Below are positions 2,818 through 56,821 of a stretch of DNA of 64,000 nucleotides, piece after piece. The DNA is taken from contig NC_134017.1 in assembly GCF_040712315.1 (NCBI RefSeq), forward strand, positions 11,128,001 to 11,192,000, in the 5' to 3' direction. Both the position numbers and the translations under genes were made by a program. This stretch comes from Castanea sativa (taxonomy: Eukaryota; Streptophyta; Magnoliopsida; Fagales; Fagaceae). How positions within the stretch are numbered: position 1 is the stretch's first letter; each line of letters starts with the position of its first letter. The notes below the pieces were generated by a model that saw only the letters and a program-made list of their open reading frames with translations, did not search any database and was not told where the DNA came from.

Positions 2818-2899
2818 CTCTTCGTCTACTTTTGTTGTGAACTCGGCAATGAAATTAGCTAAAGCATGTGCCTTAATTGCAGTTTTGGGCCGATATTGG

Positions 2900-3560: not shown

Positions 3561-3569
3561 TTCCCGTCC

Positions 3570-17023: not shown

Positions 17024-17773
17024 TGTAAGTGCACAATTACACCTGGCCCCAAGAACAGTTACGGGCTCAGGCCCAATGAGCCTTAAACAATATGAATTTG
17101 TAAAATGTGGGCTTGAAACCCAGGTTAGAAGTGTGTGAGGATTAAATGACAAGCCAAAGATTGCAAATACTCAAAAACAACGGGGAATATTGTAAATCAA
17201 CCTCCTCGGACGAAGCCAAGGGTTGTTCTTATATTATCTCTTTTTCTTTATTCTTTTCCTTTTTGATTACAAAGTCCTTTCCTCCCCTTTGTTTCAGTTC
17301 TAGGTCCCTCCTTAAATACTCTTTTTTTGATACTTTATACATGTGTTGCCCCAACTCCCCCTTAGCCTAGATATTTCTTTTCTCAGTGCCTTTGAATAGT
17401 AACCAGAAGTTTCCCTTCCACTGTTCAGGTATCACTTCCCCATTAATGCGGCTAGGGTGGTAGGTGCAGAGTCTTTAATGTGGAGGTGGCAGCCTTTATC
17501 TTTGGTATTTCTCTAATATCGGGGCTTCCAGGACATTCAAGGGTTCGCCCCTTTTAACCAATAGTCTTGACTGTGTCATTCCCTAACCTTTACCATGAAG
17601 CCCGGGTTCTCCGGTATCCGTCCGAGGAGAAGTTCACCCTCGGCTGGATCCTCGGATCCTCGGCGTATGGGCCGACCCATAGTACTAACAATTCTAAACC
17701 CAGGAGCAGGTCGGCCTTCTTAACACGGCCCAAAAGGCCCACAATCCCATCAGGATCTTTTTACCCCCCTACA
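17024..17773 (-). mobile_element. LTR of Tat-type element 2, ~750 bp (3' LTR on the minus strand)
   Basis: It starts TGTAAGTGCACAATTACACC and ends TTTTTACCCCCCTACA, so the ends are TGTA...TACA. Directly after it the plus strand reads ATAGCCCCTCAAAA, so the minus strand has a TTTTGAGGGGCTAT polypurine-like tract next to the LTR, as expected for a minus-strand element. The LTR is GC-richer than its flanks and contains GTCCGAGGA at 17620-17628 and its reverse complement at 17204-17212. The same nonamer follows at 17802-17810. The plus-strand ORF that follows is the antisense ORF of this element. The five bases before the LTR (CTATT) would be its target duplication, but the partner end is not in view. 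Confidence 0.75.
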
Positions 17774-18281
17774 ATAGCCCCTCAAAACTCTAATTTTCAA
17801 CGTCCGAGGAGAAAAATAGGGTTTTGATCCGACGAGAACCCACTCCACACATTTTGTGAATGATTGCACGTGTGGAAGTCGTTTCGCGTTCCAGGAGATG
17901 CCACCTGGCGGTTTTATTTTCAAAAACGCGCGCATTCATTACTGTAAGTTGCACTTTGTCCCCCACGTTCAATGGTGAGATGAGCATCCAACGGTCCTTA
18001 TCATTCCACGAAAATTTGGGCGGGACGAACATAATTTCGAGGCCGCTTTTCCGCACATCGTGACGCTTCGGGAAATCGCGCCTTCATTTAATTCCCCAGG
18101 GGCTAATCCCATCAAAACATCAGCAATCATACTTTACCTGCAGAAAACCGTGGAAACTTGCACACCTTCAACTTTGTAAGTTCTTACTCTTTCTATTCTT
18201 AACCTTTTCTTCTCGGCCCTTGTCCTCGGCTGACCCTAAAAACGTTCTCCCTCTTAGAGTTTAATCTTTCGTTCCTCTGTA
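17774..18281 (+). other. Leader and promoter region of the antisense ORF
   Basis: It starts with the polypurine-tract complement and holds the GTCCGAGGA copy at 17802. It is GC-richer than host sequence and has pyrimidine-rich stretches before ATG 18282. A transcript of the antisense ORF would start here or in the LTR. No TATA box is convincing. Confidence 0.4.
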
Positions 18282-20794
18282 ATGGGAAGATTCAAGTGTC
18301 TAGTTGATACCGTCGCCGGGATGGAAGGCTTTAGGGCCAAATATCACATTCCCGGTGATGTAGGGTTAAAATACTGTCCGGCAGAAGCCGTGGCCGGTTC
18401 TAAGAAAGAGGGAGAGGTTATCATCCCAATGATAGCCTTTATAGAGCGTGGGATGACCCTCCCAATGAGACCTGTAACTAGGGAATACCTTCGCAACCAT
18501 CGGTTGTGTCCCGACCAGTGCCTCCCAAACGTTTTTAGAGTTTTGGGTAGTGTCGATGCTCTGAACGAGCAAATGGGTTTGAACCTCACCTGGCACGATG
18601 TCGTTTTTCTATAGGAATCCCACAAACTTTCCAATGTAGGTTACTACATTAAATCTCGCTCCAATGTCGTTAGGCTAATCTCCTGTCTGCCCAAATCCAA
18701 CAAAGGCATGAAGGACGACTTCCTGATCGTCTCTGGGAACTGGCACGACGGCCTCCACTGTCCAGTGGAGTGGGGGGTCCCAGGTGCGATGCCATAGGAT
18801 TAATCTCCCCACAACACAACTTCCTCTAACACACACAAAAATGCGTATTCGTATTTACTTAAGCTTATTACATATCTGTGTGAATCTAACCAGGCTTGTT
18901 TGTTTTGACATCTCCTTTGCAGATAAACAACACGTGCGCCCTCGTTTGAGTCATTGTAACGTCGCAGACCTAAACTGAGTACTGCGCTCTGAGGTGTTCA
19001 TTAGTGAAGACCTACAACTTAGGGCCGCCCATCTGATCCTAGGGTACAAGCCTATCTCCTCGGACTTCCAGGAGATAGAAAACGCCATAATCGCAGGTGA
19101 CCGAAGACGGAGGAGAATAAACGTAGCCCGGCCCAACTTTTTAGACGACCGCGATCTCCCCGACGCCCCTCACACCGTGTTGCACAACCAGCCCATAGCG
19201 GCAGTTCCCCTCGCCATACATTCTCAGGGCATTGCCATCCCAGAGGAGCGAGTGTCCTCTTCCAACACTTTGGACGAGGAGATAGAACAATTTCAGTTCG
19301 AGGGCTCTCCACGTCCCCGCGGAAACCCATTTGTTATCCTCTCCGACGAGGAGGAAGAAGAAGAAGCCCAGGCCTCAGGGATTGAAGGTCTAGTGATAGC
19401 GCGTCCAGACGATAGTTCAATCGAAGAAGAAATGGACACGCTTAAGGATCTCATGTCCGACAGAGGTGCCCGGGTGGCAAAGAAGAGCACAAGGGGGTCC
19501 CAAGCTCATCCTGCCTTGCCACCACCTCCTCCTCCTCCTCCAGCCGACACTAAACCTCCCACCGACGATCCTAAGAAGAAGAGAAAGGTGGATGCCGAGG
19601 TGGCTGGTGGGGAGAAGGCAAAGAAAATAAAGCAGCAACCACCGCTGGCCCAGCAGCAGAAGCCAGACAAAGGCAAAGGGCGCGCCCGCTCGGTTGAGAG
19701 TGGGGAGATCAGAGAAGTGGCTGAGGTGCGACAAGCGCCAACCGTCTGGTCTCCTGACTTGAGACTGGACGGCGCCCCTATTCCCTGCCACTCCAGCATC
19801 AGAGCAGTGCAACAAGGGCATGCCCACCACGTAGCCGAGGTGCTGGAGCGGTCTCTTCTGCTGCCCAAGGACATGGAGTCTTTGGAGAAGATGGGTCATC
19901 CGCAGCTATTCCTCTCGTTAAAAAGGGGTTTAGCTCTGGTAAGCTCCAATTGTACACTTTTACTTTCTACATTTATTTATAAGCATTTCATTGCATGTAA
20001 CCTTCTTAACCCTTTTTCAGTCCATCCAAGAAGTTTTTGCGGCCAAGAAGTTCGTGGAGGACTCTCGAAAGCGTGCTGGGATGGAGCAGGAGTTGAGGCA
20101 AGAAGCAGAGAAGTCTCTGGGCCAGGCCCTGGCAGAGAAAGGAAGGCTCACTTCACAGCTGGCCGATCTGAAGAGAGAGAGAGACGGCGACAAGGCCAGC
20201 TTGAAGACAATGGAGAGTCAGGTGGAGGCACAGCGTAAGCTCCTCTGTCAAAAGGAGGACGAGGTTGCCTAAATCCAACAGGCACGCTCCGATCTTGAAA
20301 AGGAGCTTGCGCTGGCTAAAGAGGAAGCTCACGCCCACAAGCGCGCCATGGATGCCGCGAAGAAGGCCAGTTACCAAGAGGGGGTCATCAAAACCCAAGA
20401 GGAGCTGACAGAAGCTTTCGCGGCCTTGTGCCGTGAATACTGTCAGCAAGTCTGGAGGGAAGCCATGAATATGGCAGGGGTTCCTTAAGTTTCTGAATTG
20501 AGGAAGCCCAAAAATATTTGGCTTCCCCTAGACATTCAAGAAATTGAAGACCCTCCTGCCCCTGCCTCTCCCACTCTTCCTCCGGTGGTTCAAGAGCTTG
20601 CTCCTACTCCTACAGAACTTGAAGGTTCCCATAAAGAGGAAGACAAGCGTGATGATGCCGAGAAGGAGGAGACCCCAAGCCTGGAGCCCCTCATGCCTTC
20701 AACAAACAAAGGGAAACCAGCCTTATCAACCTTTGAAATGGATTTGAAGAATACTGAGGATGGCAGCAGCTCCCATCAAGCTCCCCTTCCCTAG
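18282..20794 (+). pseudogene. Antisense ORF of Tat-type element 2 (three exons, four stops)
   Basis: The parts join into one gene with three coding segments. Exon 1 (18282 to about 18780) reads MGRFKCLVDTVAGMEGFRAK and, beyond a stop at 18612-18614, LSNVGYYIKSRSNVVRLISC, a plant-mobile-domain-like fold. After an intron ending TTTGCAG near 18921, exon 2 (stop at 18976-18978, then open to 19938) has an acidic run (SDEEEEEEAQ), a proline run, and PKKKRKV at 19570-19590, an SV40-type nuclear import signal. An intron runs from GTAAGC at 19939 to TTTTTCAG at about 20021. Exon 3 is a coiled coil (QELRQEAEKSLGQALAEKGR), has stops at 20270-20272 and 20486-20488, and ends in an acidic tail (LEGSHKEEDKRDDAEKEE) at TAG 20792-20794. 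The function of this ORF in Tat elements is unknown. A nuclear, self-associating protein fits. This copy is dead. Confidence 0.78.
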
Positions 20795-21079
20795 CTTAGG
20801 GTCCAGTCTATGAATTTTTATATCTCTCTTCTTTGTATATGCTTAATGAAAAAACGCCTTCATTATTACTGCCTTTGCTTTACGTTATTTTCTTTATGTT
20901 TGCCATGAAAGTTCATAATAACAAGTAGTTACAGGGAATATCACTCCACCATGCAAACCATTATGACTTCAAAAATTATCATATAACTTTAGATATTAAA
21001 GAGTGTCACCGTGTAAATAACTCACATAAAGATCAAACTTTTATAACCTGAACAGATTCGACACTTCAAAAATAAAGAA
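20795..21079. other. 3' end of antisense ORF transcript and edge of the satellite
   Basis: AT-rich, with AATGAA near 20846 as a possible polyadenylation signal. Beyond about 20930 it contains phrases that weakly resemble satellite sequence but no clear unit. Confidence 0.4.
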
Positions 21080-24000
21080 CCGAAGATCCAATTTTAACAA
21101 ATGAAGAAATAATAATTTCCTTAACATGTGTGACAAGGGCAAGGACACCAACAAGATTTTGTGATCCGAGGACTGTACTTGGACAAGTTCTTGTTTGGTT
21201 ATTGATGGTCATAACTTCAAACGTTAAATTTCCCAAAGTAAGAGGTCCGAGGACCCGACATAACTGAGGTTCTGTATAACAAATGATAAAATATCAATTT
21301 CCACAAGGTTCATGGTCCGAGGACGACACTTAACCAAGTTTCTGTTTGATTCTCAAAGATAGTAACTTCAAATGTTAATTTTCCCAAAGTAGGAGGTCCG
21401 AGGACCCGGCATAACCAAGGTTCTGTTTAACAAATGATAAGATATCAATTTCCACAAGGTTTTTGATCCGAGGACTACACTTAACCAAGTTTCTGTTTGA
21501 TTCTTAAAGATAGTAACTTCAAATGTTAATTTTCCCAAAGTAGGAGGTCCGAGGACCCGACATAACTAAGGTTCTGTTTAACAAATGATAAGATATCAAT
21601 TTCCACAAGGTTTGTGGTCCGAGGACTGCACTTAACCAAGTTTCTGTTTGATTCTTAAAGATAGTAACTTCAAATGTTAATTTTCCCAAAGTAGGAGGTC
21701 CGAGGACCCGGCATAACTAAGGTTCTGTTTAACAAATTATAAGATATCAATTTCCACAAGGTTTGTGGTCCGAGGACTGCACTTAACCAAGTTTCTGTTT
21801 GATTCTTAAAGATAGTAACTTCAAATGTTAATTTTCCCAAAGTAGGAGGTCCGAGGACCCGGCATAACTAAGGTTCTGTTTAACAAATGATAAGATATCA
21901 ATTTCCACAAGGTTTGTGGTCCGAGGATTGCACTTAACCAAGTTTCTGTTTGATTCTTAAAGATAGTAACTTCAAATGTTAATTTTCCCAAAGTAGGAGG
22001 TCCGAGGACCCAGCATAACTAAGGTTCTGTTTAACAAATGATAAGATATCAATTTCCATAAGGTTTATGGTCCGAAGACTGCACTTAACCAAGTTTCTGT
22101 TTGATTCTTAAATATAGTAACTTCAAATGTTAATTTTCCCAAAGTAGGAGGTCCGAGGACCCGGCATAACTAAGGTTCTGTTTAACAAATGATAAGATAT
22201 CAATTTCCACAAGGTTTGTGGTCCGAGGACTGCACTTAACCAAGTTTCTGTTTGATTCTTAAAGATAGTAACTTCAAATATTAATTTTCCCAAAGTAGGA
22301 GGTCCGAGGACCCGGCATAACTAAGGTTCTGTTTAACAAATGATAAGATATCAATTTCCACAAGGTTTGTGGTCCGAGGACTGCACTTATACAGGATTCG
22401 CTATCATGCTTAAAGATAGTAACTTCAAATGTTAATTTTCCCAAAGTAGGAGGTCCGAGAACCCGGCATAACTAAGGTTCTGTTTAACAAATGATAAGAT
22501 ATCAATTTCCACAAGGTTTGTGGTCCGAGGACTGCACTTAACCAAGTTTCTGTTTGATTCTTAAAGATAGTAACTTCAAATATTAATTTTCCCAAAGTAG
22601 GAGGTCCGAGGACCCGGCATAACTAAGGTTCTGTTTAACAAATGATAAGATATCAATTTCCACAAGGTTTGTGGTCCGAGGACTGCACTTAACCAAGTTT
22701 CTGCTTGATTCTTAAAGATAGTAACTTCAAATATTAATTTTCCCAAAGTAGGAGGTCCGAGGACCCGGCATAACTAAGGTTCTGTTTAACAAATGATAAG
22801 ATATCAATTTCCACAAGGTTTGTGGTCCGAGGACTGCACTTAACCAAGTTTCTGCTTGATTCTTAAATATAGTAACTTCAAATGTTAATTTTCCCAAAGT
22901 AGGAGGTACGAGGACCCGGCATAACTAAGGTTCTGTTTAACAAATGATAAGATATCAATTTTCACAAGGTTTGTGGTCCGAGGACTGCACTTAACCAAGT
23001 TTCTGTTTGATTCTTAAAGATAGTAACTTCAAATGTTAATTTTTCCAAAGTAGGAGGTCCGAGGACCCGGCATAACTAAGGTTATGTTTAACAAATGATA
23101 AGATATCATTTTCCACAAGGTTTGTGGTCCGAGGACTGCACTTAACCAAGTTTCTGATTGATTCTTAAAGATAGTAACTTCAAATGTTAATTTTCCCAAA
23201 GTAGGAGTTCCGAGGACCCGGCATAACTAAGGTTCTGTTTAACAAATGATAAGATATCAATTTCCACAAGGTTTGTGGTCCGAGGACCGCACTTAACCAA
23301 GTTTCGTTTGATTCTTAAAGATAGTAACTTCAAATGTTAATTTTCCCAAAGTAGGAGGTCCGAGGACCCGGCATAACTAAGGTTCTGTTTAACAAATGAT
23401 AAGATATCAATTTCCACAAGGTTTGTGGGTCGAGGTCTTCTGTTAATCTAGTTTAGGTTTGATTCTTAAAGATAGTAACTTCAAATGTTAATTTTCCCAA
23501 AGTAGGAGTTCCGAGGACCCGGCTTAACTAAGGTTCTGTTTAACAAATGATAAGATATCAATTTCCACAAGGTTTGTGGTCTGAGGACTGCACTTAACCA
23601 AGTTTCTGTTTGATTCTTAAAGATAGTAACTTCAAATGTTAATTTTCCCAAAGTAGGAGGTCCGAGGACCCGGCATAACTAAGGTTCTGTTTAACAAATG
23701 ATAAGATATCAATTTTCACAAGGTTTGTGGTCCGAGGACTGCAATTAACCAAGTTTCTGTTTGATTCTTAAAGATAGTAACTTCAAATGTTAATTTTCCC
23801 AAAGTAGGAGGTCCGAGGACCCGGCATTACTAAGGTTCTGTTTAACAAATGATAAGATATCAATTTCCACAAGGTTTGTGGTCCGAGGACTGCACTTAAC
23901 CAAGTTTCTGTTTGATTCTTAAAGATAGTAACTTCAAATGTTAATTTTCCCAAAGTAGGAGGTCCGAGGACCCGGCATTACTAAGGTTCTGTTTAACAAA

Positions 24001-24589
24001 TGATAAGATATCAATTTCCACAAGGTTTGTGGTACGAGGACTGCACTTAACCAAGTTTCTGTTTGATTCTTAAAGATAGTAACTTCAAATGTTAATTTTC
24101 CCAAAGTAGGAGGTCCGAGGACCCGGCATAACTAAGGTTCTGTTTAACAAATGATAAGATATCAATTTCCACAAGGTTTGTGGTCCGAGGACTACACTTA
24201 ACCAAGTTTCTGTTTGATTCTTAAAGATAGTAACTTCAAATGTTAATTTTCCCAAAGTAGGAGCTCCGAGGACTCGGCATAACTAAGGTTCTGTTTAACA
24301 AATGATAAGATATAAATTTCCACAAGGTTTGTGGTCCGAGGACTGCACTTAACCAAGTTTCTGTTTGATTCTTAAAGATAGTAACTTCAAATGTTAATTT
24401 TCCCAAAGTAGGAGGTCCGAGAACCCGGCATAACTAAGGTTGTTTTTAACAAATGATAAGATATCAATTTCCACAAGGTTTGTGGTCCGAGGACTGCACT
24501 TAACCAAGTTTCGTTTGATTCTTAAATATAGTAACTTCAAATTTTAATTTTCCCAAAGTAGGAGGTCCGAGGACTCGGCATAACTAAGG

Positions 24590-27500
24590 TTCTTTTTAAC
24601 AAATTATAAGATATAAATTTCCACAAGGTTTGTGGTCCGAGGACTGCACTTAACCAAGTTTCTGTTTGATTCTTAAAGATAGTAACTTCAAATGTTAATT
24701 TTCCCAAAGTAGGAGGTCCGAGGACCCGGCATTACTAAGGTTCGTTTAACAAATGATAAGATATCAATTTCCACAAGGTTTGTGGTACGAGGACCGCACT
24801 TAACCAAGTTTCGTTTGATTCTTAAAGATAGTAACTTCAAATGTTAATTTTCCCAAAGTAGGAGGTCCGAGGACCCGGCATAACTAAGGTTCGTTTAACA
24901 AATGATAAGATATCAATTTTCACAAGGTTTGTGGTCCGAGGACTGCACTTAACCAAGTTTCGTTTGATTCTTAAAGATAGTAACTACAAACGTTAATTTT
25001 CCCAAAGTAGGAGGTCCGAGGACTCGGCATAACTAAGGTTCGTTTAACAAATGATAAGATATCAATTTCCACAAGGTTTGTGGTCCGAGGACTGCACTTA
25101 ACCAAGTTTCGTTTGATTCTTAAAGATAGTAACTTCAAATGTTAATTTTCCCAAAGTAGGAGGTCCAAGGACCCGGCATAACTAAGGTTACTGTTTAACA
25201 AATGATAAGATATCAATTTCCACAAGGTTTGTGGTCCGAGGACTGCAAATAACCAGCATTCGTATTGAATCATAAAAAAATGAAATACAAATGTTAATTT
25301 TCCCAAAGTAGGAGGTCCGAGGGCCCGGCATAGCTAAGCAGCGGTGTAACAAATCATAAGATATTAATATCCACAAGGTTTGTGGTTCGAGGACTGCACT
25401 TAACCAAGTTTCTGTTTGATTCTTAAAGATAGTAACTTCAAATGTTAATTTTCCCAAAGTAGGAGGTCCGAGGACCCGGCATAACTAAGGTACTGTTTAA
25501 CAAATGATAAGATATCAATTTCCACAAGGTTTGTGGTCCGAGGACTACACTTCACCAAGTTTCTGTTTGATTCTTAAAGATAGTAACTTCAAATGTTAAT
25601 TTTCCCAAAGTAGGAGGTCCGAGGACCCGGCATAACTAAGGTTCTGTTTAACAAATGATAAGATATAAATTTCCACAAGGTTTGTGGTCCGAGGACTGCA
25701 CTTAACCAAGTTTCTGTTTGATTCTTAAAGATAGTAACTTCAAATGTTAATTTTCCCAAAGTAGGAGGTCCGAGGACCCGGCATTACTAAGGTTCTGTTT
25801 AACAAATGATAAGATATCAATTTCCACAAGGTTTGTGGTACGAGGACTGCACTTAACCAAGTTTCTGTTTGATTCTTAAAGATAGTAACTTCAAATGTTA
25901 ATTTTCCCAAAGTAGGAGGTCCGAGGACCCGGCATTACTAAGGTTCTGTTTAACAAATGATAAGATATCAATTTCCACAAGGTTTGTGGTACGAGGACTG
26001 CACTTAACCAAGTTTCTGTTTGATTCTTAAAGATAGTAACTTCAAAAGTTAATTTTCCCAAAGTAGGAGGTCCGAGGACCCGGCATAACTAAGGTTCTGT
26101 TTAACAAATGATAAGATATCAATTTTCACAAGGTTTGTGGTCCGAGGACTGCACTTAACCAAGTTTCTGTTTGATTCTTAAACATAGTAACTTCAAATGT
26201 TAATTTTCCCAAAGTAGGAGGTCCGAGGACCCGGCATAACTAAGGTTCTGTTTAACAAATGATAAGATATAAATTTCCACAAGGTTTGTGGTCCGAGGAC
26301 TGCACTTAACCAAGTTTCTGTTTGATTCTTAAAGATAGTAACTTCAAATGTTAATTTTCCCAAAGTAGGAGGTCCGAGGACCCGGCATTACTAAGGTTCT
26401 GTTTAACAAATGATAAGATATCAATTTCCACAAGGTTTGTGGTACGAGGACTGCATTTAACCAAGTTTCTGTTTGATTCTTAAAGATAGTAACTTCAAAT
26501 GTTAATTTTCCCAAAGTAGGAGGTCCGAGGACCCGGCATAACTAAGGTTCTGTTTAACAAATGATAAGATATCAATTTTCACAAGGTTTGTGGTCCGAGG
26601 ACTGCACTTAACCAAGTTTCTGTTTGATTCTTAAAGATAGTAACTTCAAATGTTAATTTTCCCAAAGTAGGAGGTTCGAGGACCCGGCATAACTAAGGTT
26701 GTTTTAACAAATGATAAGATATCAATTTTCACAAGGTTTGTGGTCCGAGGACCGCACTTAACCAAGTTTCGTTTGATTCTTAAACATAGTAACTTCAAAT
26801 GTTAATTTTCCCAAAGTAGGAGGTCCGAGGACCCGGCATAAGTAAGGTTCGTTTAACAAATGATAAGATATAAATTTCCACAAGGTTTGTGGTCCGAGGA
26901 CCGCACTTAACCAAGTTTCGTTTGATTCATAAAGATAGAAACTTCAAATGTTAATTTTCCCAAAGTAGGAGGTCCGAGGACCCGGAATTACTAAGGTACT
27001 GTTTAACAAATGATAAGATATAAATTTCCACAAGGTTTGTGGTACGAGGACCGCACTTAACCATGTTTCGTTTGATTCTTAAAGATAGTAACTTCAAATG
27101 TTAATTTTCCCAAAGTAGGAGGTCCGAGGACCCTTCATAACTAAGGTTCTGTTTAACAAATGATAAGATATCAATTTTCACAAGGTTTGTGGTCCGAGGA
27201 CTGCACTTAACCAAGTTTCTGTTTGATTCTTAAAGATAGTAACTTCAAATGTTAATTTTCCCAAAGTAGGAGGTTCGAGGACCCGGCATAACTAAGGTTC
27301 TGTTTAACAAATGATAAGATATCAATTTTCACAAGGTTTGTGGTCCGAGGACTGCACTTAACCAAGTTTCTGTTTGATTCTTAAACATAGTAACTTCAAA
27401 TGTTAATTTTCCCAAAGTAGGAGGTCCGAGGACTCGGTATAACTAAGGTACTATTTAACAAATGATAAGATATAAATTTCCACAAGGTTTGTGGTCCGAG

Positions 27501-30500
27501 GACTGCACTTAACCAAGTTTCTGTTTGATTCTTAAAGATAGTAACTTCAAATGTTAATTTTCCCAAAGTAGGAGGTCCGAGGACCCGGCATAACTAAGGT
27601 TCTGTTTAACAAATGATAAGATATCAATTTCCACAAGGTTTGTGGTCCGAGGACTGCACTTAACCAAGTTTCTGTTTGATTCTTAAAGATAGTAACTTCA
27701 AATGTTAATTTTCCCAAAGTAGGAGGTCCGAGGACCCGGCATAACTAAGGTTCTGTTTAACAAATGATAAGATATCAATTTCCACAAGGTTTGTGGTCCG
27801 AGGACTGCACTTAACCAAGGTTCTGTTTGATTCTTAAAGATAGTAACTTCAAATGTTAATTTTCCCAAAGTAGGAGCTCCGAGGACCCGGCATAACTAAG
27901 GTTCTGTTTAACAAATGATAAGATATCAATTTTCACAAGGTTTGTGGTCCGAGGACTGCACTTAACCAAGTTTCTGTTTGATTCTTAAAGAGAGTAACTT
28001 CAAATGTTAATTTTCCCAAAGTAGGAGGTCCAAGGACCCGGCATAACTAAGGTTCTGTTTAACAAATGATAAGATATCAATTTCCACAAGGTTTGTGGTC
28101 CGAGGACTGCACTTAACCAAGTTTCTGTTTGATTCTTAAAGACAGTAACTTCAAATGTTAATTTTCCAAAAGTAGGAGGTCCGAGAACCCGGCATAACTA
28201 AGGTTCTGTTTAACAAATGATAAGATATCAATTTCCACAAGGTTTGTGGTCCGAGGACTGCACTTAACCAAGTTTCTGTTTGATTCTTAAAGATAGTAAC
28301 TTCAAATGTTAATTTTCCCAAAGTAGGAGGTCCGAGGACCCGGCATTACTAAGGTTCTGTTTAACAAAGATAAGATATCAATTTCCACAAGGTTTGTGGT
28401 ACGAGGACTGCACTTAACCAAGTTTCTGTTTGATTCTTAAAGATAGTAACTTCAAATGTTAATTTTCCCAAAGTAGGAGGTCCGAGGACCCGGCATAACT
28501 AAGGTTCTGTTTAACAAATGATAAGATATCAATTTTCACAAGGTTTGTGGTCCGAGGACTACACTTAACCAAGTTTCTGTTTGATACTTAAAGATAGTAA
28601 CTTCAAATGTTAATTTTCCCAAAGTAGGAGGTCTGAAGACCCGGCATAACTAAGGTTCTGTTTAACAAATGATAAGATATCAATTTCCACAAGGTTTGTG
28701 GTCCGAGTACTGCACTTAACCAAGTTTCTGTTTGATTCTTAAAGATAGTAACTTCAAATGTTAATTTTCCCAAAGTAGGAGGTCCGAGGACCCGGCATAA
28801 CTAAGGTTCTGTTTAACAAATGATAAGATATCAATTTAGATATGGTTTTTGGTCCGAGGACGGCACTTAACCAAGTTTCTGTTTGATTCTTAAAGATAGT
28901 AACTTCAAATGTTAATTTTCCCAAAGTAGGAGGTCCGAGGACCCGGCATAACTAAGGTTCTGTTTAACAAATGATAAGATATCAATTTCCACAAGGTTTG
29001 TGGTCCGAGGACAGCACTTAACCAAGTGTCTGTTTGATTCTTAAAGATAGTAACTTCAAATGTTAATTTTCCCAAAGTAGGAGGTCCGAGGACCCGGCAT
29101 AACTAAGGTTCTGTTTAACAAATGATAAGATATCAATTTCCACTAGGTTTGTGGTCCGAGGACTGCACTTAACCAAGTTTCTGTTTGATTCTTAAAGATA
29201 GTAACTTCAAATGTTAATTTTCCCAAAGTAGGAGGTCCGAGGACCCGGCATAACTAAGGTTCTGTTTAACAAATGATAAGATATCAATTTCCACAAGGTT
29301 TGTGGTCCGAGGACTACACTTCACCAAGTTTCTGTTTGATTCTTAAAGATAGTAACTTCAAATGTTAATTTTCCCAAAGTAGGAGGTCCGAGGACCCGGC
29401 ATAACTAAGGTTCTGTTTAACAAATGATAAGATATAAATTTCCACAAGGTTTGTGGTCCGAGGACTGCACTTAACCAAGTTTCTGTTTGATTCTTAAAGA
29501 TAGTAACTTCAAATGTTAATTTTCCCAAAGTAGGAGGTCCGAGGACCCGGCATTACTAAGGTTCTGTTTAACAAATGATAAGATATCAATTTCCACAAGG
29601 TTTGTGGTACGAGGACTGCATTTAACCAAGTTTCTGTTTGATTCTTAAAGATAGTAACTTCAAATGTTAATTTTCCCAAAGTAGGAGGTCCGAGGACCCG
29701 GCATAACTAAGGTTCTGTTTAACAAATGATAAGATATCAATTTTCACAAGGTTTGTGGTCCGAGGACTGCACTTAACCAAGTTTCTGTTTAATTCTTAAA
29801 GATAGTGACTTCAAATGTTAATTTTCCCAAAGTAGGAGGTCCGAGGACCCGGCATAACTAAGGTTCTGTTTAACAAATGATAAGATATCAATTTTCACAA
29901 GGTTTGTGGTCCGAGGACTGCACTTAACCAAGTTTCTGTTTGATTCTTAAACATAGTAACTTCAAATGTTAATTTTCCCAAAGTAGGAGGTCCGAGGACC
30001 CGGCATAACTAAGGTTCTGTTTAACAAATGATAAGATATCAATTTCCACTAGGTTTGTGGTCCGAGGACTGCACTTAACCAAGTTTCTGTTTGATTCTTA
30101 AAGATAGTAACTTCAAATGTTAATTTTCCCAAAGTAGGAGGTCCGAGGACCCGGCATAACTAAGGTACTGTTTAACAAATGATAAGATATCAATTTCCAC
30201 AAGGTTTGTGGTCCGAGGACTACACTTCACCAAGTTTCTGTTTGATTCTTAAAGATCGTAACTTCAAATGTTAATTTTCCCAAAGTAGGAGGACCGAGGA
30301 CCCGGCATAACTAAGGTTCTGTTTAACAAATTATAATATTTATATTTTGACAAGGTTTTTGTTCAGAGGACTTATCTTAACCATGTTTATGTTTGATTTT
30401 TTAAGATAGTAACTTCAAATGTTAATTTTTCCAAATTAGGAGGTCCGAGGACCCGCATTACTAAGGTTCTCGTTTAACAAATGATAAGATATCAATTTCC

Positions 30501-30900
30501 ACAAGGTTTGTGGTACGAGGACCGCATTTAACCAAGTTTCGTTTGATTCTTAAAGATAGTAACTTCAAATGTTAATTTTCCCAAAGTAGGAGGTCCGAGG
30601 ACCCGCATAACTAAGGTTCTGTTTAACAAATGATAAGATATCAATTTTCACAAGGTTTGTGGTCCGAGGACCGCACTTAACCAAGTTTCGTTTGATTCTT
30701 AAAGATAGTAACTTCAAATGTTAATTTTCCCAAAGTAGGAGGTCCGAGGACCCGCATAACTAAGGTTCCGTTTAACAAATGATAAGATATCAATTTTCAC
30801 AAGGTTTGTGGTCCGAGGACCGCACTTAACCAAGTTTCGTTTGATTCTTAAACATAGCAACTTCAAATGTTAATTTTCCCAAAGTAGGAGGTCCGAGGAC
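24590..30900. repeat. Local four-unit (~600-bp) higher-order repeats in the satellite
   Basis: A fixed order of variant units recurs: u1 with GATATAAATTT, u2 with GGCATTACTAAGG plus GGTACGAGG, u3 with ATCAATTTTCACAAGG, u4 with ATCAATTTTCAC plus TTAAACATAGTAAC. Runs are seen from about 25600, 26200 and 26810 (periods near 600 bp), with further full or partial copies at about 24590, 27410, 29380 and 30430. A longer block, marked by GACTACACTTCACC at 25541 and 29310, recurs 3,769 bp apart, close to 25 units. Ordinary units separate some copies. Confidence 0.7.
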
Positions 30901-33299
30901 CCGGCATAACTAACGTACTTTATAACAAATGAAAAGATATCAAATAACAAAAGGTGTGTGGTCTGAGGACTGCACTTAACCAAGTTTCGTTTGATTCTTG
31001 AAGATAGTAACTTCAAATGTTAATTTTCCCAAAGTAGGAGGTCCGAGGACCCGGCATAACTAAGGTTCTATTTAACAAATGATAAGATATCAATTTCCAC
31101 AAGGTTTGTGGTCTGAGGACTGCACTTAACCGAGTTTCTGTTTGATTCTTGAAGATAGTAACTTCAAATGTTAATTTTCCCAAAGTAGGAGGTCCGAGGA
31201 CCCGGCATAACTAAGGTACTGTTTAGCAAATGATAAGATATCAATTTCCACAAGGTTAGTGGTCCGAGGACTGCACTTCACCAAGTTTCTGTTTGATTCA
31301 TAAAGATAGTAACTTCAAATGTTAATTTTCCCAAAGTAGGAGGTCCGAGGACCCGGCATAACTAAGGTACTGTTTAACAAATGATAAGATATCAATTTCC
31401 ACAAGGTTTGTGGTCCGAGGACTGCACTTAACCAAGGTTCTGTTTGATTCTTAAAGATAGTAACTTCAAATGTTAATTTTCCCAAAGTAGGAGGTCCGAG
31501 GACCCGGCATAACTAAGGTTCTGTTTAACAAATGATAAGATATCAATTTCCACAAGGTTTGTGGTCCGAGGACTGCACTTAACCAAGTTTCTGTTTGATT
31601 CTTAAAGATAGTAACTTCAAATGATAATTTTCCCAAACTAGGAGTTCCGAGGACCCGGCATAACTAAGGTTCTGTTTAACAAATGATAAGATATCAGTTT
31701 CCACAAGGTTTGTGGTCCGAGGACTGCACTTAACCAAGTTTCTGTTTGATTCTTAAAGATAGTAACTTCAAATGTTAATTTTCCCAAAGTAGGAGGTCCG
31801 AGGACCCGGCATTACTAAGGTACTGTTTAACAAATGATAGGATATCAATTTCCACAAGGTTTGTGGTACGAGGACTGCACTTAACCAAGTTTCTGTTTGA
31901 TTCTTAAAGATAGTAACTTCAAATGTTAATTTTCCCAAAGTAGGAGGTCCGAGGACCCGGCATAACTAAGGTTCTGTTTAACAAATGATAAGATATCAAT
32001 TTCCACAAGGTTTGTGGTCCGAGGACTGAACTTAACCAAGTTTCTGTTTGATTCTTAAAGATAGTAACTTCAAATGTTAATTTTCCCAAAGTAGGAGGTC
32101 CGAGGACCCGCATAACTAAGGTTCGTTTAACAAATGATAAGATATCAATTTCCACAAGGTTTGTGGTCCGAGGACGGCACTTAACCAAGTTTCTGTTTGA
32201 TTCTTAAAGATAGTAACTTCAAATGTTAATTTTCCCAAAGTAGGAGGTCCGAGGACCCGGCATAACTAAGGTTCTGTTTAACAAATGATAAGATATCAAT
32301 TTCCACCAGGTTTGTGGTCCGAGGACGACACTTAACCAAGTTTCTGTTTGATTCTTAAAGATAGTAACTTCAAATGTTAATTTTCCCAAAGTAGGAGGTC
32401 CGAGGACCCGGCATAACTAAGGTTCTGTTTAACAAATGATAAGATATCAATTTCCACCAGGTTTGTGGTCCGAGGACCGCACTTAACCAAGTTTCGTTTG
32501 ATTCTTAAAGATAGTAACTTCAAATGTTAATTTTCCCAAAGTAGGAGGTCCGAGAACCCGGCATAACTAAGGTTCGTTTAACAAATGATAAGATATAAAT
32601 TTCCACAAGGTTTGTGGTCCGAGGACCGCACTTAACCAAGTTTCGTTTGATTCTTAAAGATAGTAACTTCAAATGTTAATTTTCCCAAAGTAGGAGGTCC
32701 GAGGACCCGGCATAACTAAGGTTCTGTTTAACAAATGATAAGATATCAATTTCCACAAGGTTTGTGGTCCGAGGACCGCACTTAACCAAGTTTCGTTTGA
32801 TTCTTAAAGATAGTAACTTCAAATGTTAATTTTCCCAAAGTAGGAGGTCCGAGGACCCGGCATAACTAAGGTTCTGTTTAACAAATGATAAGAGATCAAT
32901 TTCCACAAGGTTTGTGGTCCGAGGACTGCACTTAACCAAGTTTCTGTTTGATTCTTATAGATAGTAACTTCTAATGTTTATTTTCCCAACGTAGGAGGTC
33001 CGAGGACCCGGCATAACTAAGGTTCTGTTTAACAAATGATAAGATATCAATTTCCACAAGGTTTATGGTCCGAGGACCGCACTTAACCAAGTTTCGTTTG
33101 ATTCTTAAAGATAGTAACTTCAAATGTTAATTTTCCCAAAGTAGGAGGTCCGAGGACCCGCATAACTAAGGCTCGTTTAACAAATGATAAGATATAAATT
33201 TCCACAAGGTTTGTGGTTCGAGGACCGCACTTAACCAAGTTTCGTTTGATTCTTAAAGATAGTAACTTCAAATGTTAATTTTCCCAAAGTAGGAGTTCC

Positions 33300-48200: not shown

Positions 48201-51200
48201 TTCAAATGTTAATTTTCCCAAAGTAGGAGGTCCGAGGACCCGGCATAACTAAGGTTCGTTTTAACAAATGATAAGATATCAATTTCCACAAGGTTTGTGG
48301 TCCGAGGACCGCACTTAACCAAGTTTCGTTTGATTCTTAAAGATAGTAACTTCAAATGTTAATTTTCCCAAAGTAGGAGGTCCGAGGACCCGCATAACTA
48401 AGGTTCTCGTTTAACAAATGATAAGATATCAATTTCCACAAGGTTTGTGGTCCGAGGACCGCACTTAACCAAGTTTCGTTTGATTCTTAAAGATACTAAC
48501 TTCAAATGTTAATTTTCCCAAAGTAGGAGGTCCGAGGACCCGGCATAACTAAGGTTCTGTTTAACAAATGATAAGATATCAATTTCCACATGGTTTGTGG
48601 TCCGAGGACCGCACTTAACCAAGTTTCGTTTGATTCTTAAAGATAGTAACTTCAAATGTTAATTTTCCCAAAGTAGGAGGTCCGAGGACCCGGCATAACT
48701 AAGGTTCCGTTTAACAAATGATAAGATATCAATTTCCACAAGGTTTGTGGTCCGAGGACCGCACTTAACCAAGTTTCGTTTGATTCTTAAAGATACTAAC
48801 TTCAAATGTTAATTTTCCCAAAGTAGGAGGTCCGAGGACCCGGCATAACTAAGGTTCTGTTTAAAAAATGATAAGATATCAATTTCCACAAGTTTTGTGG
48901 TCCGAGGACCGTACTTAAACAAGTTTCTGTGTGAGTCTTAAAGATAGTAACTTCAAATGTTAATTTTCCCAAAGTAGGAGGTCCGAGGACCCGGCATAAC
49001 TAAGGTTCTGTTTAAAAAATGATAAGATATCAATGTCCACATGGTTTGTGGTCCGAGGACCGTACTTAACCAAGTTTCGTTTGATTCTTAAAGATAGTAA
49101 CTTCAAATGTTAATTTTCCCAAAGTAGGAGGTCCGAGGACCCGCATAACTAAGGTTCTCGTTTAACAAATGATAAGATATCAATTTCCACAAGGTTTGTG
49201 GTCCGAGGACCGCACTTAACCAAGTTTCGTTTGATTCTTAAAGATAGTAACTTCAAATGTTAATTTTCCCAAAGTAGGAGGTCCGAGGACCCGCATAACT
49301 AAGGTTCTCGTTTAACAAATGATAAGATATCAATTTCCACAAGGTTTGTGGTCCGAGGACCGCACTTAACCAAGTTTCGTTTGATTCTTATAGATAGTAT
49401 CTTAAATTGTTAATTTTCCCAAACTAGGAGGTCCGAGGACCCGGCATAACTAAGGTTCTGTTTAACAAATGATAAGATATCAATTTCCACAAGTTTGTAG
49501 TCCGAGGACTGCACTTAACCAAGTTTCTGTTTGATTCTTAAAGATAGTAACTTCAAATGTTAATTTTCCCAAAGTAGGAGGTCCGAGGACCCGCATAACT
49601 AAGGTTCCGTTTAACAAATGATAAGATATCAATTTCCACAAGGTTTGTGGTCCGAGGACCGCACTTAACCAAGTTTCGTTTGATTCTTAAAGATAGTAAC
49701 TTCAAATGTTAATTTTCCCAAAGTAGGAGGTCCGAGGACCCGCATAACTAAGGTTCCGTTTAACAAATGATAAGATATCAATTTCCACAAGGTTTGTGGT
49801 CCGAGGACCGCACTTAACCAAGTTTCGTTTGATTCTTAAAGATAGTAACTTCAAATGTTAATTTTCCCAAAGTAGGAGGTCCGAGGACCCGCATAACTAA
49901 GGTTCGTTTAACAAATGATAAGATATCAATTTCCACAAGGTTTGTGGTCCGAGGACCGCACTTAACCAAGTTTCGTTTGATTCTTAAAGATAGTAACTTC
50001 AAATGTTAATTTTCCCAAAGTAGGAGGTCCGAGGACCCGCATAACTAAGGTTCGTTTAACAAATGATAAGATATCAATTTCCACAAGGTTTGTGGTCCGA
50101 GGACCGCACTTAACCAAGTTTCGTTTGATTCTTAAAGATAGTAACTTCAAATGTTAATTTTCCCAAAGTAGGAGGTCCGAGGACCCGGCATAACTAAGGT
50201 TCTCGTTTAACAAATGATAAGATATCAATTTCCACAAGGTTTGTGGTCCGAGGACCGCACTTAACCAAGTTTCGTTTGATTCTTAAAGATAGTAACTTCA
50301 AATGTTAATTTTCCCAAAGTAGGAGGTCCGAGGACCCGCATAACTAAGGTTCGTTTTAACAAATGATAAGATATCAATTTCCACAAGGTTTGTGGTCCGA
50401 GGACCGCACTTAACCAAGTTTCGTTTGATTCTTAAAGATAGTAACTTCAAATGTTAATTTTCCCAAAGTAGGAGGTCCGAGGACCCGCATAACTAAGGCT
50501 CGTTTAACAAATGATAAGATATAAATTTCCACAAGGTTTGTGGTTCGAGGACCGCACTTAACCAAGTTTCGTTTGATTCTTAAAGATAGTAACTTCAAAT
50601 GTTAATTTTCCCAAAGTAGGAGTTCCGAGGACCCGCATAACTAAGGTTCGTTTAACAAATGATAAGATATCAATTTCCACAAGGTTTGTGGTCCGAGGAC
50701 CGCACTTAACCAAGTTTCGTTTGATTCTTAAAGATAGTAACTTCAAATGTTAATTTTCCCAAAGTAGGAGGTCCGAGGACCCGGCATAACTAAGGTTCTC
50801 GTTTAACAAATGATAAGATATCAATTTCCACAAGGTTTGTGGTCCGAGGACCGCACTTAACCAAGTTTCGTTTGATTCTTAAAGATAGTAACTTCAAATG
50901 TTAATTTTCCCAAAGTAGGAGGTCCGAGGACCCTAAGATAACTAAGGTTCGTTTAACAAATGATAAGATATCAATTTCCACAAGGTTTGTGGTCCGAGGA
51001 CCGCACTTAACCAAGTTTCGTTTGATTCTTAAAGATAGTAACTTCAAATGTTAATTTTCCCAAAGTAGGAGGTCCGAGGACCCGCATAACTAAGGTTCGT
51101 TTAACAAATGATAAGATATCAATTTCCACAAGGTTTGTGGTCCGAGGACCGCACTTAACCAAGTTTCGTTTGATTCTTAAAGATAGTAACTTCAAATGTT

Positions 51201-54200
51201 AATTTTCCCAAAGTAGGAGGTCCGAGGACCCTAAGCATAACTAAGGTTCTCGTTTAACAAATGATAAGATATCAATTTCCACAAGGTTTGTGGTCCGAGG
51301 ACCGCACTTAACCAAGTTTCGTTTGATTCTTAAAGATAGTAACTTCAAATGTTAATTTTCCCAAAGTAGGAGGTCCGAGGACCCGCATAACTAAGGTTCG
51401 TTTAACAAATGATAAGATATCAATTTCCACAAGGTTTGTGGTCCGAGGACCGCACTTAACCAAGTTTCGTTTGATTCTTAAAGATAGTAACTTCAAATGT
51501 TAATTTTCCCAAAGTAGGAGGTCCGAGGACCCGGCATAACTAAGGTTCTCGTTTAACAAATGATAAGATATCAATTTCCACAAGGTTTGTGGTCCGAGGA
51601 CCGCACTTAACCAAGTTTCGTTTGATTCTTAAAGATAGTAACTTCAAATGTTAATTTTCCCAAAGTAGGAGGTCCGAGGACCACGCATGACTACTCGTCT
51701 CAAAGACGAATGAAAAGATCTCAATTTCCACAAGGTTTGTGGTCCGAGGACCGCACTTAACCAAGTTTCGTTTGATTCTTAAAGATAGTAACTTCAAATG
51801 TTAATTTTCCCAAAGTAGGAGGTCCGAGGACCCGGCATAACTAAGGTTCGTTTAACAAATGATAAGATATCAATTTCCACAAGGTTTGTGGTCCGAGGAC
51901 CGCACTTAACCAAGTTTCGTTTGATTCTTAAAGATAGTAACTTCAAATGTTAATTTTCCCAAAGTAGGAGGTCCGAGGACCCGGCATAACTAAGGTTCGT
52001 TTAACAAATGATAAGATATCAATTTCCACAAGGTTTGTGGTCCGAGGACCGCACTTAACCAAGTTTCGTTTGATTCTTAAAGATAGTAACTTCAAATGTT
52101 AATTTTCCCAAAGTAGGAGGTCCGAGGACCCGCATAACTAAGGTTCTGTTTAACAAATGATAAGATATCAATTTCCACAAGGTTTGTGGTCCGAGGACCG
52201 CACTTAACCAAGTTTCGTTTGATTCTTAAAGATAGTAACTTCAAATGTTAATTTTCCCAAAGTAGGAGGTCCGAGGACCCGCATAACTAAGGTTCCGTTT
52301 AACAAATGATAAGATATCAATTTCCACAAGGTTTGTGGTCCGAGGACTGCACTTAACCAAGTTTCGTTTGATTCTTAAAGATAGTAACTTCAAATGTTAA
52401 TTTTCCCAAAGTAGGAGGTCCGAGGACCCGCATAACTAAGGTTCTCGTTTAACAAATGATAAGATATCAATTTCCACAAGGTTTGTGGTCCGAGGACCGC
52501 ACTTAACCAAGTTTCGTTTGATTCTTAAAGATAGTAACTTCAAATGTTAATTTTCCCAAAGTAGGAGGTCCGAGGACCCGGCATAACTAAGGTTCGTTTA
52601 ACAAATGATAAGATATCAATTTCCACAAGGTTTGTGGTCCGAGGACCGCACTTAACCAAGTTTCTGATCGATTCTTAAAGATAGTAACTTCAAAAGTTAA
52701 TTTTCCCAAAGTAGCAGTTCCGAGGACCCTGCATAACTAATGTTATTATTAACTAATGATTAGTTATCAATTTACAAAAGGTTTGTGGTCCGAGGACCGC
52801 ACTTAACCAAGTTTCGTTTGATTCTTAAAGATAGTAACTTCAAATGTTAATTTTCCCAAAGTAGGAGGTCCGAGGACCCGCATAACTAAGGTTCCGTTTA
52901 ACAAATGATAAGATATCAATTTCCACAAGGTTTGTGGTCCGAGGACCGCACTTAACCAAGTTTCGTTTGATTCTTAAAGATAGTAACTTCAAATGTTAAT
53001 TTTCCCAAAGTAGGAGGTCCGAGGACCCGCATAACTAAGGTTCTCGTTTAACAAATGATAAGATATCAATTTCCACAAGGTTTGTGGTCCGAGGACCGCA
53101 CTTAACCAAGTTTCGTTTGATTCTTAAAGATAGTAACTTCAAATGTTAATTTTCCCAAAGTAGGAGGTCCGAGGACCCGCATAACTAAGGTTCCGTTTAA
53201 CAAATGATAAGATATCAATTTCCACAAGGTTTCGTGGTCCGAGGACCGCACTTAACCAAGTTTCTGTTTGATTCTTAAAGATAGTATCTTCAAATGTTAA
53301 TTTTCCCAAAGTAGGAGGTCCGAGGACCCGGCATAACTAAGGTTCTGTTTAACAAATGATAAGATATCAATTTCCACAAGGTTTGTGGTCCGAGGACCGT
53401 ACTTAACCAAGTTTCTGTTTGACTCTTACAAATAGTAACTTCAAATGTTAATTTTCCCAAAGTAGGAGGTCCGAGGACCCGGCATAACTAAGGTTCTGTT
53501 TAACAAATGATAAGATATCAATTTCCACAAGGTTTGTGGTCCGAGGACCGTACTTAACCAAGTTTCTGTTTGACTCTTACAAATAGTAACTTCAAATGTT
53601 AATTTTCCCAAAGTAGGAGGTCCGAGGACCCGGCATAACTAAGGTTCTGTTTAACAAATGATAAGATATCAATTTCCACAAGGTTTGTGGTCCGAGGACC
53701 GCACTTAACCAAGTTTCGTTTGATTCTTAAAGATAGTAACTTCAAATGTTAATTTTCCCAAAGTAGGAGGTCCGAGGACCCGCATAACTAAGGTTCTGTT
53801 TAACAAATGATAAGATATCAATTTCCACAAGGTTTGTGGTCCGAGGACTCGCACTTAACCAAGTTTCGTTTGATTCTTAAAGATAGTAACTTCAAATGTT
53901 AATTTTCCCAAAGTAGGAGGTCCGAGGACCCGCATAACTAAGGTTCTCGTTTAACAAATGATAAGATATCAATTTCCACAAGGTTTGTGGTCCGAGGACC
54001 GCACTTAACCAAGTTTCGTTTGATTCTTAAAGATAGTAACTTCAAATGTTAATTTTCCCAAAGTAGGAGGTCCGAGGACCCGGCATAACTAAGGTTCCGT
54101 TTAACAAATGATAAGATATCAATTTCCACAAGGTTTGTGGTCCGAGGACTGCACTTAACCAAGTTTCGTTTGATTCTTAAAGATAGTAACTTCAAATGTT

Positions 54201-55000
54201 AATTTTCCCAAAGTAGGAGGTCCGAGGACCCGCATAACTAAGGTTCGTTTAACAAATGATAAGATATCAATTTCCACAAGGTTTGTGGTCCGAGGACCGC
54301 ACTTAACCAAGTTTCGTTTGATTCTTAAAGATAGTAACTTCAAATGTTAATTTTCCCAAAGTAGGAGGTCCGAGGACCCGGCATAACTAAGGTTCCTGTT
54401 TAACAAATGATAAGATATCAATTTCCACAAGGTTTGTGGTCCGAGGACCGCACTTAACCAAGTTTCGTTTGATTCTTAAAGATAGTAACTTCAAATGTTA
54501 ATTTTCCCAAAGTAGGAGGTCCGAGGACCCGCATAACTAAGGTTCTCGTTTAACAAATGATAAGATATCAATTTCCACAAGGTTTGTGGTCCGAGGACCG
54601 CACTTAACCAAGTTTCGTTTGATTCTTAAAGATAGTAACTTCAAATGTTAATTTTCCCAAAGTAGGAGGTCCGAGGACCCGCATAACTAAGGTTCGTTTA
54701 ACAAATGATAAGATATCAATTTCCACAAGGTTTGTGGTCCGAGGACCGCACTTAACCAAGTTTCGTTTGATTCTTAAAGATAGTAACTTCAAAATGTTAA
54801 TTTTCCCAAAGTAGGAGGTCCGAGGACCCGGCATAACTAAGGTTCTCGTTTAACAAATGATAAGATATCAATTTCCACAAGGTTTGTGGTCCGAGGACCG
54901 CACTTAACCAAGTTTCTCGTTTCGATTCTTAAAGATAGTAACTTCAAATGTTAATTTTCCCAAAGTAGGAGGTCCGAGGACCCGCATAACTAAGGTTCGT
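33300..55000. repeat. Homogenised core of the satellite with toggling CTG/CCGG sites
   Basis: Over about 145 units nearly all bases agree, while four sites vary freely: GGTT(CTG, CG, CCG or CTCG)TTT, GGAC(T or C)GCAC, TTT(CTG or CG)TTTG and GACCC(GG or G)CAT. These sites account for the change from 151 to 148-150 bp. A few noisy units (48840-49060, 52660-52790, 53280-53600) interrupt the block. Confidence 0.85.
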
Positions 55001-56621
55001 TTAACAAATGATAAGATATCAATTTCCACAAGGTTTGTGGTCCGAGGACCGCACTTAACCAAGTTTCGTTTGATTCTTAAAGATAGTAACTTCAAATGTT
55101 AATTTTCCCAAAGTAGGAGGTCCGAGGACCCGGCATAACTAAGGTTCTCGTTTAACAAATGATAAGATATCAATTTCCACAAGGTTTGTGGTCCGAGGAC
55201 CGCACTTAACCAAGTTTCTCGTTTGATTCTTAAAGATAGTAACTTCAAATGTTAATTTTCCCAAAGTAGGAGGTCCGAGGACCCGGCATAACTAAGGTTC
55301 GTTTAACAAATGATAAGATATCAATTTCCACAAGGTTTGTGGTCCGAGGACTGCACTTAACCAAGTTTCGTTTCGATTCTTAAAGATAGTAACTTCAAAA
55401 TGTTAATTTTCCCAAAGTAGGAGGTCCGAGGACCCGCATAACTAAGGTTCCGTTTAACAAATGATAAGATATCAATTTCCACAAGGTTTGTGGTCCGAGG
55501 ACCGCACTTAACCAAGTTTCGTTTGATTCTTAAAGATAGTAACTTCAAATGTTAATTTTCCCAAAGTAGGAGGTCCGAGGACCCGCATAACTAAGGTTCT
55601 CGTTTTAACAAATGATAAGATATCAATTTCCACAAGGTTTGTGGTCCGAGGACCGCACTTAACCAAGTTTTCGTTTGATTCTTAAAGATAGTCACTTCAA
55701 ATGTTAATTTTCCCAAAGCAGGAGGTCCGAGGACCCGCATAACTAAGGTTCGTTTAACAAATGATAAGATATCAATTTCCACAAGGTTTGTGGTCCGAGG
55801 ACCGCACTTAACCAAGTTTCTCGTTTGATTCTTAAAGATAGTAACTTCAAATGTTAATTTTCCCAAAGTAGGAGGTCCGAGGACCCGGCATAACTAAGGT
55901 TCTCGTTTAACAAATGATAAGATATCAATTTCCACAAGGTTCAGTGGTCCGAGGACCGCACTTAACCAAGTTTCCGTTTGATTCTTAAAGATAGTAACTT
56001 TCAAATGTTAATTTTCCCCAAAGTAGGAGGTCCGAGGACCCGGCATAACTAAGGTTCTCGTTTAACAAATGATAAGATATCAATTTCCACAAGGTTTGTG
56101 GTCCGAGGACCGCACTTAACCAAGTTTCCGTTTGATTCTTAAAGATAGTAACTTCAAATGTTAATTTTCCCAAAGTAGGGAGGTCCGAGGACCCGCATAA
56201 CTAAGGTTCCGTTTAACAAATGATAAGATATCAATTTCCACAAGGTTTGTGTTCCGAGGACCGCACTTAACCAAGTTTCTCGTTTGATTCTTAAAGATAG
56301 TAACTTCAAATGTTAATTTTCCCAAAGTAGGAGGTCCGAGGACCCCCGCATAACTAAGGTTCTGTTTAACAAATGATAAGATATCAATTTCCACAAGGTT
56401 TGTGGTCCGAGGACTCGCACTTAACCAAGTTTCTGCTTGATTCTTAAAGATAGTAACTTCAAAATGTTAATTTTCCCAAAGTAGGTAGGTCCGAGGACCC
56501 GTGGTGAGATAACTAAGGTTCTCCGTTTTAACAAATGACAAGACATCAATTTCCACAAGGTTTCGTGGTCCGAGGACTGCACTTAACCAAGTTTCTCGTT
56601 TTTGATTCTTAAAGATAGTAA

Positions 56622-56821
56622 NNNNNNNNNNNNNNNNNNNNNNNNNNNNNNNNNNNNNNNNNNNNNNNNNNNNNNNNNNNNNNNNNNNNNNNNNNNNNNN
56701 NNNNNNNNNNNNNNNNNNNNNNNNNNNNNNNNNNNNNNNNNNNNNNNNNNNNNNNNNNNNNNNNNNNNNNNNNNNNNNNNNNNNNNNNNNNNNNNNNNNN
56801 NNNNNNNNNNNNNNNNNNNNN
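56622..56821. other. Assembly gap of 200 N
   Basis: Exactly 200 undetermined bases. A round number suggests a scaffolding placeholder rather than a measured size. The satellite on its left is cut in mid-unit and the right flank carries no satellite. Confidence 0.98.

Follow-up and report, generated by a model that had tools for sequence, protein, structure and literature searches.

Can a long satellite array be traced to the internal repeats of a single retrotransposon insertion, and if so, where and how did it grow? The question is raised by a stretch of 64,000 nucleotides of the chestnut Castanea sativa (NCBI RefSeq assembly GCF_040712315.1, contig NC_134017.1, positions 11,128,001 to 11,192,000 of the forward strand; hereafter “the window”), in which a long terminal repeat (LTR), an antisense gene and an array of 151-bp units lie in line. 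From the letters alone, an initial annotation had read this arrangement as a satellite born from the untranslated repeats of a Tat-type retrotransposon. Our follow-up leads to a related answer: the window very probably holds the 3' half of an old Tat-clade, Retand-like insertion, whose internal 151-bp array has grown to more than 230 units.

The array occupies positions 21158-56621, where Tandem Repeats Finder reports a period of 151, 236.4 copies and 96% matches. It runs into an assembly gap of 200 N (56622-56821), which hides the end of the array and the pol half of the element, so that the visible 35.5 kb are a minimum and the integrase side is out of view; the satellite of about 36 kb that had been proposed is present, with a right end that is set by the gap. 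The family pol sequence has no blastn match anywhere in the window. Behind the first (edge) unit (21158-21289, plus strand), the array falls into two parts, both on the plus strand: part A (21290-33000), whose units vary among themselves (on average 2.6 changes per unit when CTG/CCGG sites are set aside; 7/78 units unchanged outside these sites), and part B (33001-56621), whose units are near-identical apart from probable miscalls at CTG/CCGG sites (116/157 units otherwise unchanged). A search for a higher-order repeat in the array gave only a weak signal: in part A, units are slightly ordered in fours (z about 3 at lag 4).

The origin of the array becomes apparent from its relatives in the same genome (716 Mb, 13 contigs). 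Twenty loci were picked by satellite match, out of some 31 clusters in the match list (a count by eye), and eight further loci by the spacer that separates antisense gene and array, with the satellite disregarded; the stretches fetched for the latter were too short for the antisense gene and the LTR. In all 28 fetched copies, an array of the 151-bp unit adjoins the integrase side. The order and orientation of LTR, untranslated region (UTR) and antisense gene are constant in the 20 satellite-selected copies, and the other eight show the spacer. A match of more than 100 bases to the window-type spacer was found in 16/20 satellite-selected and 8/8 spacer-selected loci, and is absent from L021, L022, L025 and L026. 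Where the pol frame was examined (10 loci), it ends 52-66 bp before the array in eight, and earlier in two. The arrays of the 28 copies are short (522-3,071 bp, median 1,270, about 3 to 20 units), and 23 of them measure a whole number of units plus 0.34-0.48, which implies mostly fixed ends and a copy number that changes by whole units. The same association emerges when loci are selected blind to the satellite: 20 not-yet-fetched places, taken from the best 40 of 3,450 candidates for the integrase, all carry the satellite next to the integrase in the expected orientation. Hence, every sampled member of the family carries a short array of the 151-bp unit between the end of the integrase and the spacer.

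Approached from the satellite itself, the picture is similar. A 20-base pattern from the unit has 2,717 plus 2,489 occurrences in the genome, 199 of them in the window, and its reversed control has 0. The first 100 listed places, all on contig C1, form 30 clusters, each at most 1,681 bases wide; the pol side was sampled for 20 of these clusters, and 19 reach pol. In the twentieth, L102 (C1:3737884-3738484), satellite extends across all 601 bases past the last exact match, and this cluster is perhaps another longer array. Searches of viral-contig and genome-contig collections confirmed no relatives.

The boundary of the window array links it to the family more directly. Its first unit, which is of the element type, is on average 94% identical (82-99%) to the first units of 23 copies and 77-81% identical to the edge units of five diverged copies (L018, L021, L022, L025, L026), whereas it is only 85% identical to the unit of its own array. 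The inner units of the short arrays resemble the window unit at a mean of 96.6% identity (198 units), and some of those in L010, L011 and L014 are identical to it. The edge unit thus follows the family and not the adjacent array, which argues that multiplication took place inside the element and that the junction is the family's own. In the window copy, the edge unit stayed and the inner ones multiplied to more than 230, a length subject to the assembly. Together with the fixed place of the array in the 28 fetched copies and the 20 integrase-selected places, this supports the proposal that the satellite derives from the repeats of a Tat-type element. The same-genome partners that the initial annotation had recommended as a check were found, with short arrays beside the integrase in 28/28 copies and antisense gene plus LTR in 20/20, and neither of the two outcomes it had named as contrary, unrelated sequence between integrase and antisense open reading frame (ORF) or satellite arrays apart from the element, was seen in the samples. 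Its estimate of growth from below 1 kb to over 35 kb holds for the long array and needs adjustment for the starting point, since ordinary arrays measure 0.5-3.1 kb and not solely less than 1 kb.

A second giant array, on C1, provides what the gap conceals in the window. It belongs to a minus-oriented element at 91,517,843-91,585,139, a representative of a diverged branch (identity to the window copy 81% in the antisense gene and 69% in the LTR), in which the target sequence ATGTA, the 5' LTR (to 91,518,535), a primer-binding-like stretch, pol, the array, the antisense gene, the 3' LTR and a second ATGTA follow each other. The repeated ATGTA is a 5-bp target duplication, as described for the Retand lineage. 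According to its edges, the array (91,523,928-91,580,989) measures 57,062 bp, or about 380 units; each of the 19 stretches sampled from it (300-400 bases) consists of satellite free of N, and so do its two edges. By both edges and these samples, growth has reached 57 kb within one complete insertion, and arrays above 5 kb comprise that of the window (at least 35.5 kb) and that on C1 (57.1 kb by its edges). The two C1 LTRs differ by a Kimura two-parameter (K2P) distance of 0.031 over 656 aligned bases. At a substitution rate of 1.3e-8 per site and year, the insertion would be about 1.2 million years old, and older at slower rates. At three positions of the unit, all 22 sampled C1 units share one base, while 75 part-A units mostly carry another (88-100%), so that the two growths look independent; these variants suggest that the arrays on C1 and in the window grew separately, from different starting units.

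Could the element instead have picked up a satellite that was older and separate, its ancestor capturing a piece and spreading it, so that the long arrays would be remnants of the original satellite? In principle, capture is named as an alternative by Vondrak et al. (PMC7004042, available text), putative centromeric units of oaks measure 146-157 bp, a similarity in size only (PMC13042303, available text), and one of the 20 sampled C1 clusters showed only satellite in the stretch read. However, the long array of the window begins with the family edge unit, that on C1 lies between the spacer and pol sides of an element and is enclosed by a target duplication, 19 of the 20 sampled clusters touch the element, and even the five diverged copies have the array at this place. 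We therefore regard capture as scarcely credible. A giant element that transposed with its array already long in the inserting RNA would account for the complete ends of the C1 copy, its target duplication and LTRs that are 3.1% apart. Yet eight LTR pairs on the same strand, matched up and calculated by hand, extend over 11.1-12.3 kb, as opposed to 67.3 kb on C1, and the arrays of the 28 copies do not exceed 3.1 kb, which makes an inserting 67-kb transcript very unlikely. To our knowledge, a genomic RNA of 67 kb lies far beyond those of known elements.

The length of the window array might also be mostly an effect of assembly, a modest array having been inflated by long reads confused by the repeats. 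That the array ends at a 200-N gap, and that part B is near-invariant and bears miscalls, would fit. Part A alone, however, covers 11.7 kb, nearly four times as much as the longest short array among the 28 copies, with units that differ from each other as described above; duplicated error patterns in part B are no longer than in shuffled data (longest run 4, compared to a mean of 3.4 and a maximum of 5 in the shuffles); and at the four CTG/CCGG sites, the C1 array shows almost exclusively ordinary forms. Inflation on this scale is accordingly improbable. Several observations nevertheless weigh against growth of an internal array within an old insertion, or limit it: in the window copy, neither integrase nor 5' LTR nor target duplication is seen; the length of its array depends on an assembly with miscalls in the inner two thirds; the C1 array is known by its edges and samples; five of the 28 array lengths deviate from the rule of n + 0.4; the timing, after insertion, is argued and not observed; and the polarity is judged within the genome of Castanea sativa. 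In addition, short arrays contain the bases characteristic of C1 as well, in a minority of units (e.g., in 40/155 units at one position), so that the independence of the two growths rests on different starting units.

Growth of the element's own array thus remains our preferred account, and a possible course of events can be outlined. In the samples, the ordinary state is a short array with mostly fixed edges, which varies in copy number by whole units. Further growth would most likely have occurred on the chromosome after insertion and not during reverse transcription, through many rounds of unequal exchange or slippage among near-identical units; an exchange of blocks would fit the weak 4-unit order that part A shows. 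The antisense gene of the window copy is decayed, yet the core of its array is nearly uniform, which we count for growth after insertion. The initial annotation had described the locus as a snapshot of satellite birth. LTR, antisense gene and array are indeed still in line, but the half of the element beside the array is decayed, and “birth” is therefore to be understood as growth in an old insertion.

The near-uniformity of part B requires a closer look, as most of its changes resemble artefacts. From about 33.0 kb onward, 601/699 changes fall into 21/151 positions, namely three CTG and one CCGG with their neighbours. Units with at least two changes at these sites make up 156/157 in part B and 28/78 in part A, which is patchy in this respect (33/78 units unchanged there). 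Eight columns differ by more than 25% between the two parts, all of them in or beside the three CTG and one CCGG, and the fourth site is a mix of spellings. In the 28 short arrays, the ordinary forms dominate and few B forms are seen (2/175 with CCG at site 1, 7/209 with TTTCG at site 2); likewise, ordinary forms dominate in the C1 samples, with TTTCG in 2/36 and mostly CTA at site 1. The changes of part B are likely uncorrected nanopore errors at CHG-methylated cytosines, where the identity of the units would have prevented polishing by short reads. A real sequence subfamily was considered as well. In its favour, sites 1 and 2 jointly take the B form in other parts of the genome, too: this combination has 273 occurrences, and of the first 100 listed, 42 lie outside the window, dispersed or in small groups across contigs C1 to C4. 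A subfamily is unlikely, given that the differences are confined to CTG/CCGG sites and that B forms are rare elsewhere; it is the probable miscalls at these sites that make part B resemble one. As a warning, satellite arrays in assemblies may carry context-bound miscalls that mimic a sequence subfamily.

The remaining parts of the window copy are consistent with a Tat-clade element on the minus strand. Its 3' LTR (17024-17773, minus strand) has TGTA..TACA ends as well as TATAA and AATAAA on the minus strand, which bears out the LTR of the initial annotation; its 750 bp lie within the 315-1194 bp of the Retand lineage, and besides itself it has 39 near-full-length genome matches with 91-94% identity among the best 40 of 5738 candidates. 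The polypurine tract noted there for a minus-strand element was likewise recovered, as a purine-rich stretch directly inside the LTR (17774-17790, minus strand; read from the letters), and the same stretch adjoins the 3' LTR of the C1 element. The untranslated region between LTR and antisense gene (17774-18281) is 80.7-98.4% identical in 20/20 copies. On the other side of the gene, the spacer of 363 bp (20795-21157, plus strand) has 39 genome places besides itself with 76-94% identity, among the best 40 of 303 candidates, and holds a decayed repeat piece of 28 bp (21092-21119), whose score of 31 in a stricter alignment was reached by 0/500 spacer shuffles. A profile search for decayed units in the flanks gave nothing significant, nor did an earlier, looser alignment.

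The antisense ORF that had been placed at 18282-20794 (plus strand) is present and matched by Castanea proteins, but it is a broken, TRP28-like gene with probable exons at 18282-18783, 18923-19938 and 20021-20794. Four in-frame stops precede its natural end (at 18612, 18976, 20270 and 20486), and two intron-like interruptions divide it (18784-18922 and 19939-20020). Castanea sativa proteins align to parts of exons 2 and 3 with 49-72% identity; some of these alignments span both sides of the second break, and Castanea protein models skip the same gap. If true, the introns would imply that the gene is transcribed separately, from the antisense strand. For the first exon, 1309 of 1312 candidates proved to be relatives. 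Its match to the Pfam family Transposase_28 (PF04195; E 0.0043, 17.7 bits) is below the cut-off of 26.2, as are the matches in five of ten scanned relatives, and a precomputed PF04195 match exists for 1/120 listed relatives. The TRP28 (Transposase_28) domain is described from the antisense ORFs of Retand elements (PMC11963269, available text). In a relative, the pol frame, which is out of view in the window copy, has the order RVT_1, RNase H, Integrase_H2C2 and rve, with no chromodomain at E 0.001 (Pfam), and Pfam finds integrase core and zinc-binding domains in the pol frames of two fetched loci. The distance between the end of the integrase frame and the LTR (about 4.7 kb in L009) falls within the 2.9-6.6 kb given for Retand elements (PMC11963269, available text). 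The family is therefore named Retand-like (Ty3/gypsy, Tat clade), an assignment to the Retand lineage from architecture only.

Two further features lie to the left of the element. A 1.3-kb direct duplication (6440-7723 and 14963-16225) has 86% identity between its copies, and a more distant second gypsy element occupies 1104-3563 on the minus strand, with a pol protein that is 35-44% identical. This second element has its own array just past the integrase (536-903, 5.5 copies of 66 bp), i.e., the same layout as the window family, unexpanded.

The 151-bp unit itself is a decayed old dimer, whose halves of 81 and 70 bp align with a score of 47 (500 shuffles reach at most 13) and both begin with GGTCCGAGGAC. 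In general, unit and element share no more sequence than expected by chance (7 nine-mers versus 5.6 expected). The only motif that recurs between them is the nine-mer GTCCGAGGA, which is present twice per array unit and four times in the LTR, UTR and antisense gene (17202, 17620, 17802 and 19057), compared to at most two in 300 shuffles. Each unit contains one perfect dyad, GGTCCGAGGACC, and one copy with an altered last base, and the dyad core TCCGAGGA is the top-count 8-mer of the stretch from LTR to antisense gene. Considering that DNA binding has been predicted for the TRP28 domain (PMC11963269, available text), the array might be imagined as a platform of putative binding sites for the element's own antisense-encoded protein, an idea that we rate as very doubtful. 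If it were true, the element would make its own DNA-binding regulator and carry a tunable number of sites for it, so that array length would act as a dial on its activity, with runaway length as a by-product. The conservation evidence for selection on such a dyad is mixed. Within the array, the dyad core is not better conserved than the rest (31 changes at 20 sites versus 108 at 110), nor are three GTCCGAGGA-type sites of LTR and UTR over 21 copies (1209/5000 random triples did as well); in four diverged copies (L018, L021, L025 and L068), the same three sites are better conserved (122/5000 triples did as well).

What single insertions now show is what read-based work had shown statistically, namely that Tat-clade repeats seed satellites. 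The host insertion can be dated by LTR divergence (3.1% on C1), and array variants record each growth, so that one could measure, locus by locus, how fast and where satellites are born in a tree genome. The 82-bp repeat of Coffea Tat elements is reportedly also a satellite from the 3' non-coding end, a likeness drawn by title. Among the matches listed in a literature search, none treats this repeat or a Retand-derived satellite in chestnut. Retand and Ogre are the commonest Gypsy lineages in oaks (PMC10988972, available text), and the putative centromeric satellites of Fagaceae (146-157 bp in oak, 79/80 bp in beech) were compared to the 151-bp unit by the sizes given in the available text only. 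Tandem arrays in the region between POL and 3' LTR have been described for Retand elements, with units of 8-100 bp and at most 85 copies (Vicient, 2025, PMC11963269, available text), whereas the chestnut unit measures 151 bp and is repeated more than 230 times. The same study reports recently active Retand elements from 34 species; the orders that its available text names do not include Fagales.

The closest counterpart is found in Lathyrus sativus. Hypervariable 3' UTRs of Tat elements, again with satellites from the 3' non-coding end, are the subject of an earlier study (Macas et al., 2009, as described in the available text of PMC7004042), and satellite birth from Tat-clade repeats is already published: nine Ogre-derived satellites, FabTR-51 and eight others, are known from L. 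sativus (Vondrak et al., PMC7004042, available text). As in chestnut, short arrays of Tat-clade elements lie downstream of gag-pol in a fixed orientation, and a fraction of them is expanded, up to 174 kb in FabTR-51 (PMC7004042, available text). The long arrays of Lathyrus are mainly found in primary constrictions (PMC7004042, available text), apparently unlike the 67-kb element on C1, which sits about 0.38 Mb from the contig end. Moreover, the evidence from Lathyrus was pooled from reads (PMC7004042, available text), whereas that from chestnut consists of two single insertions, one of them with both LTRs and the target duplication, and thereby adds an unusually complete locus to a known route of satellite birth.

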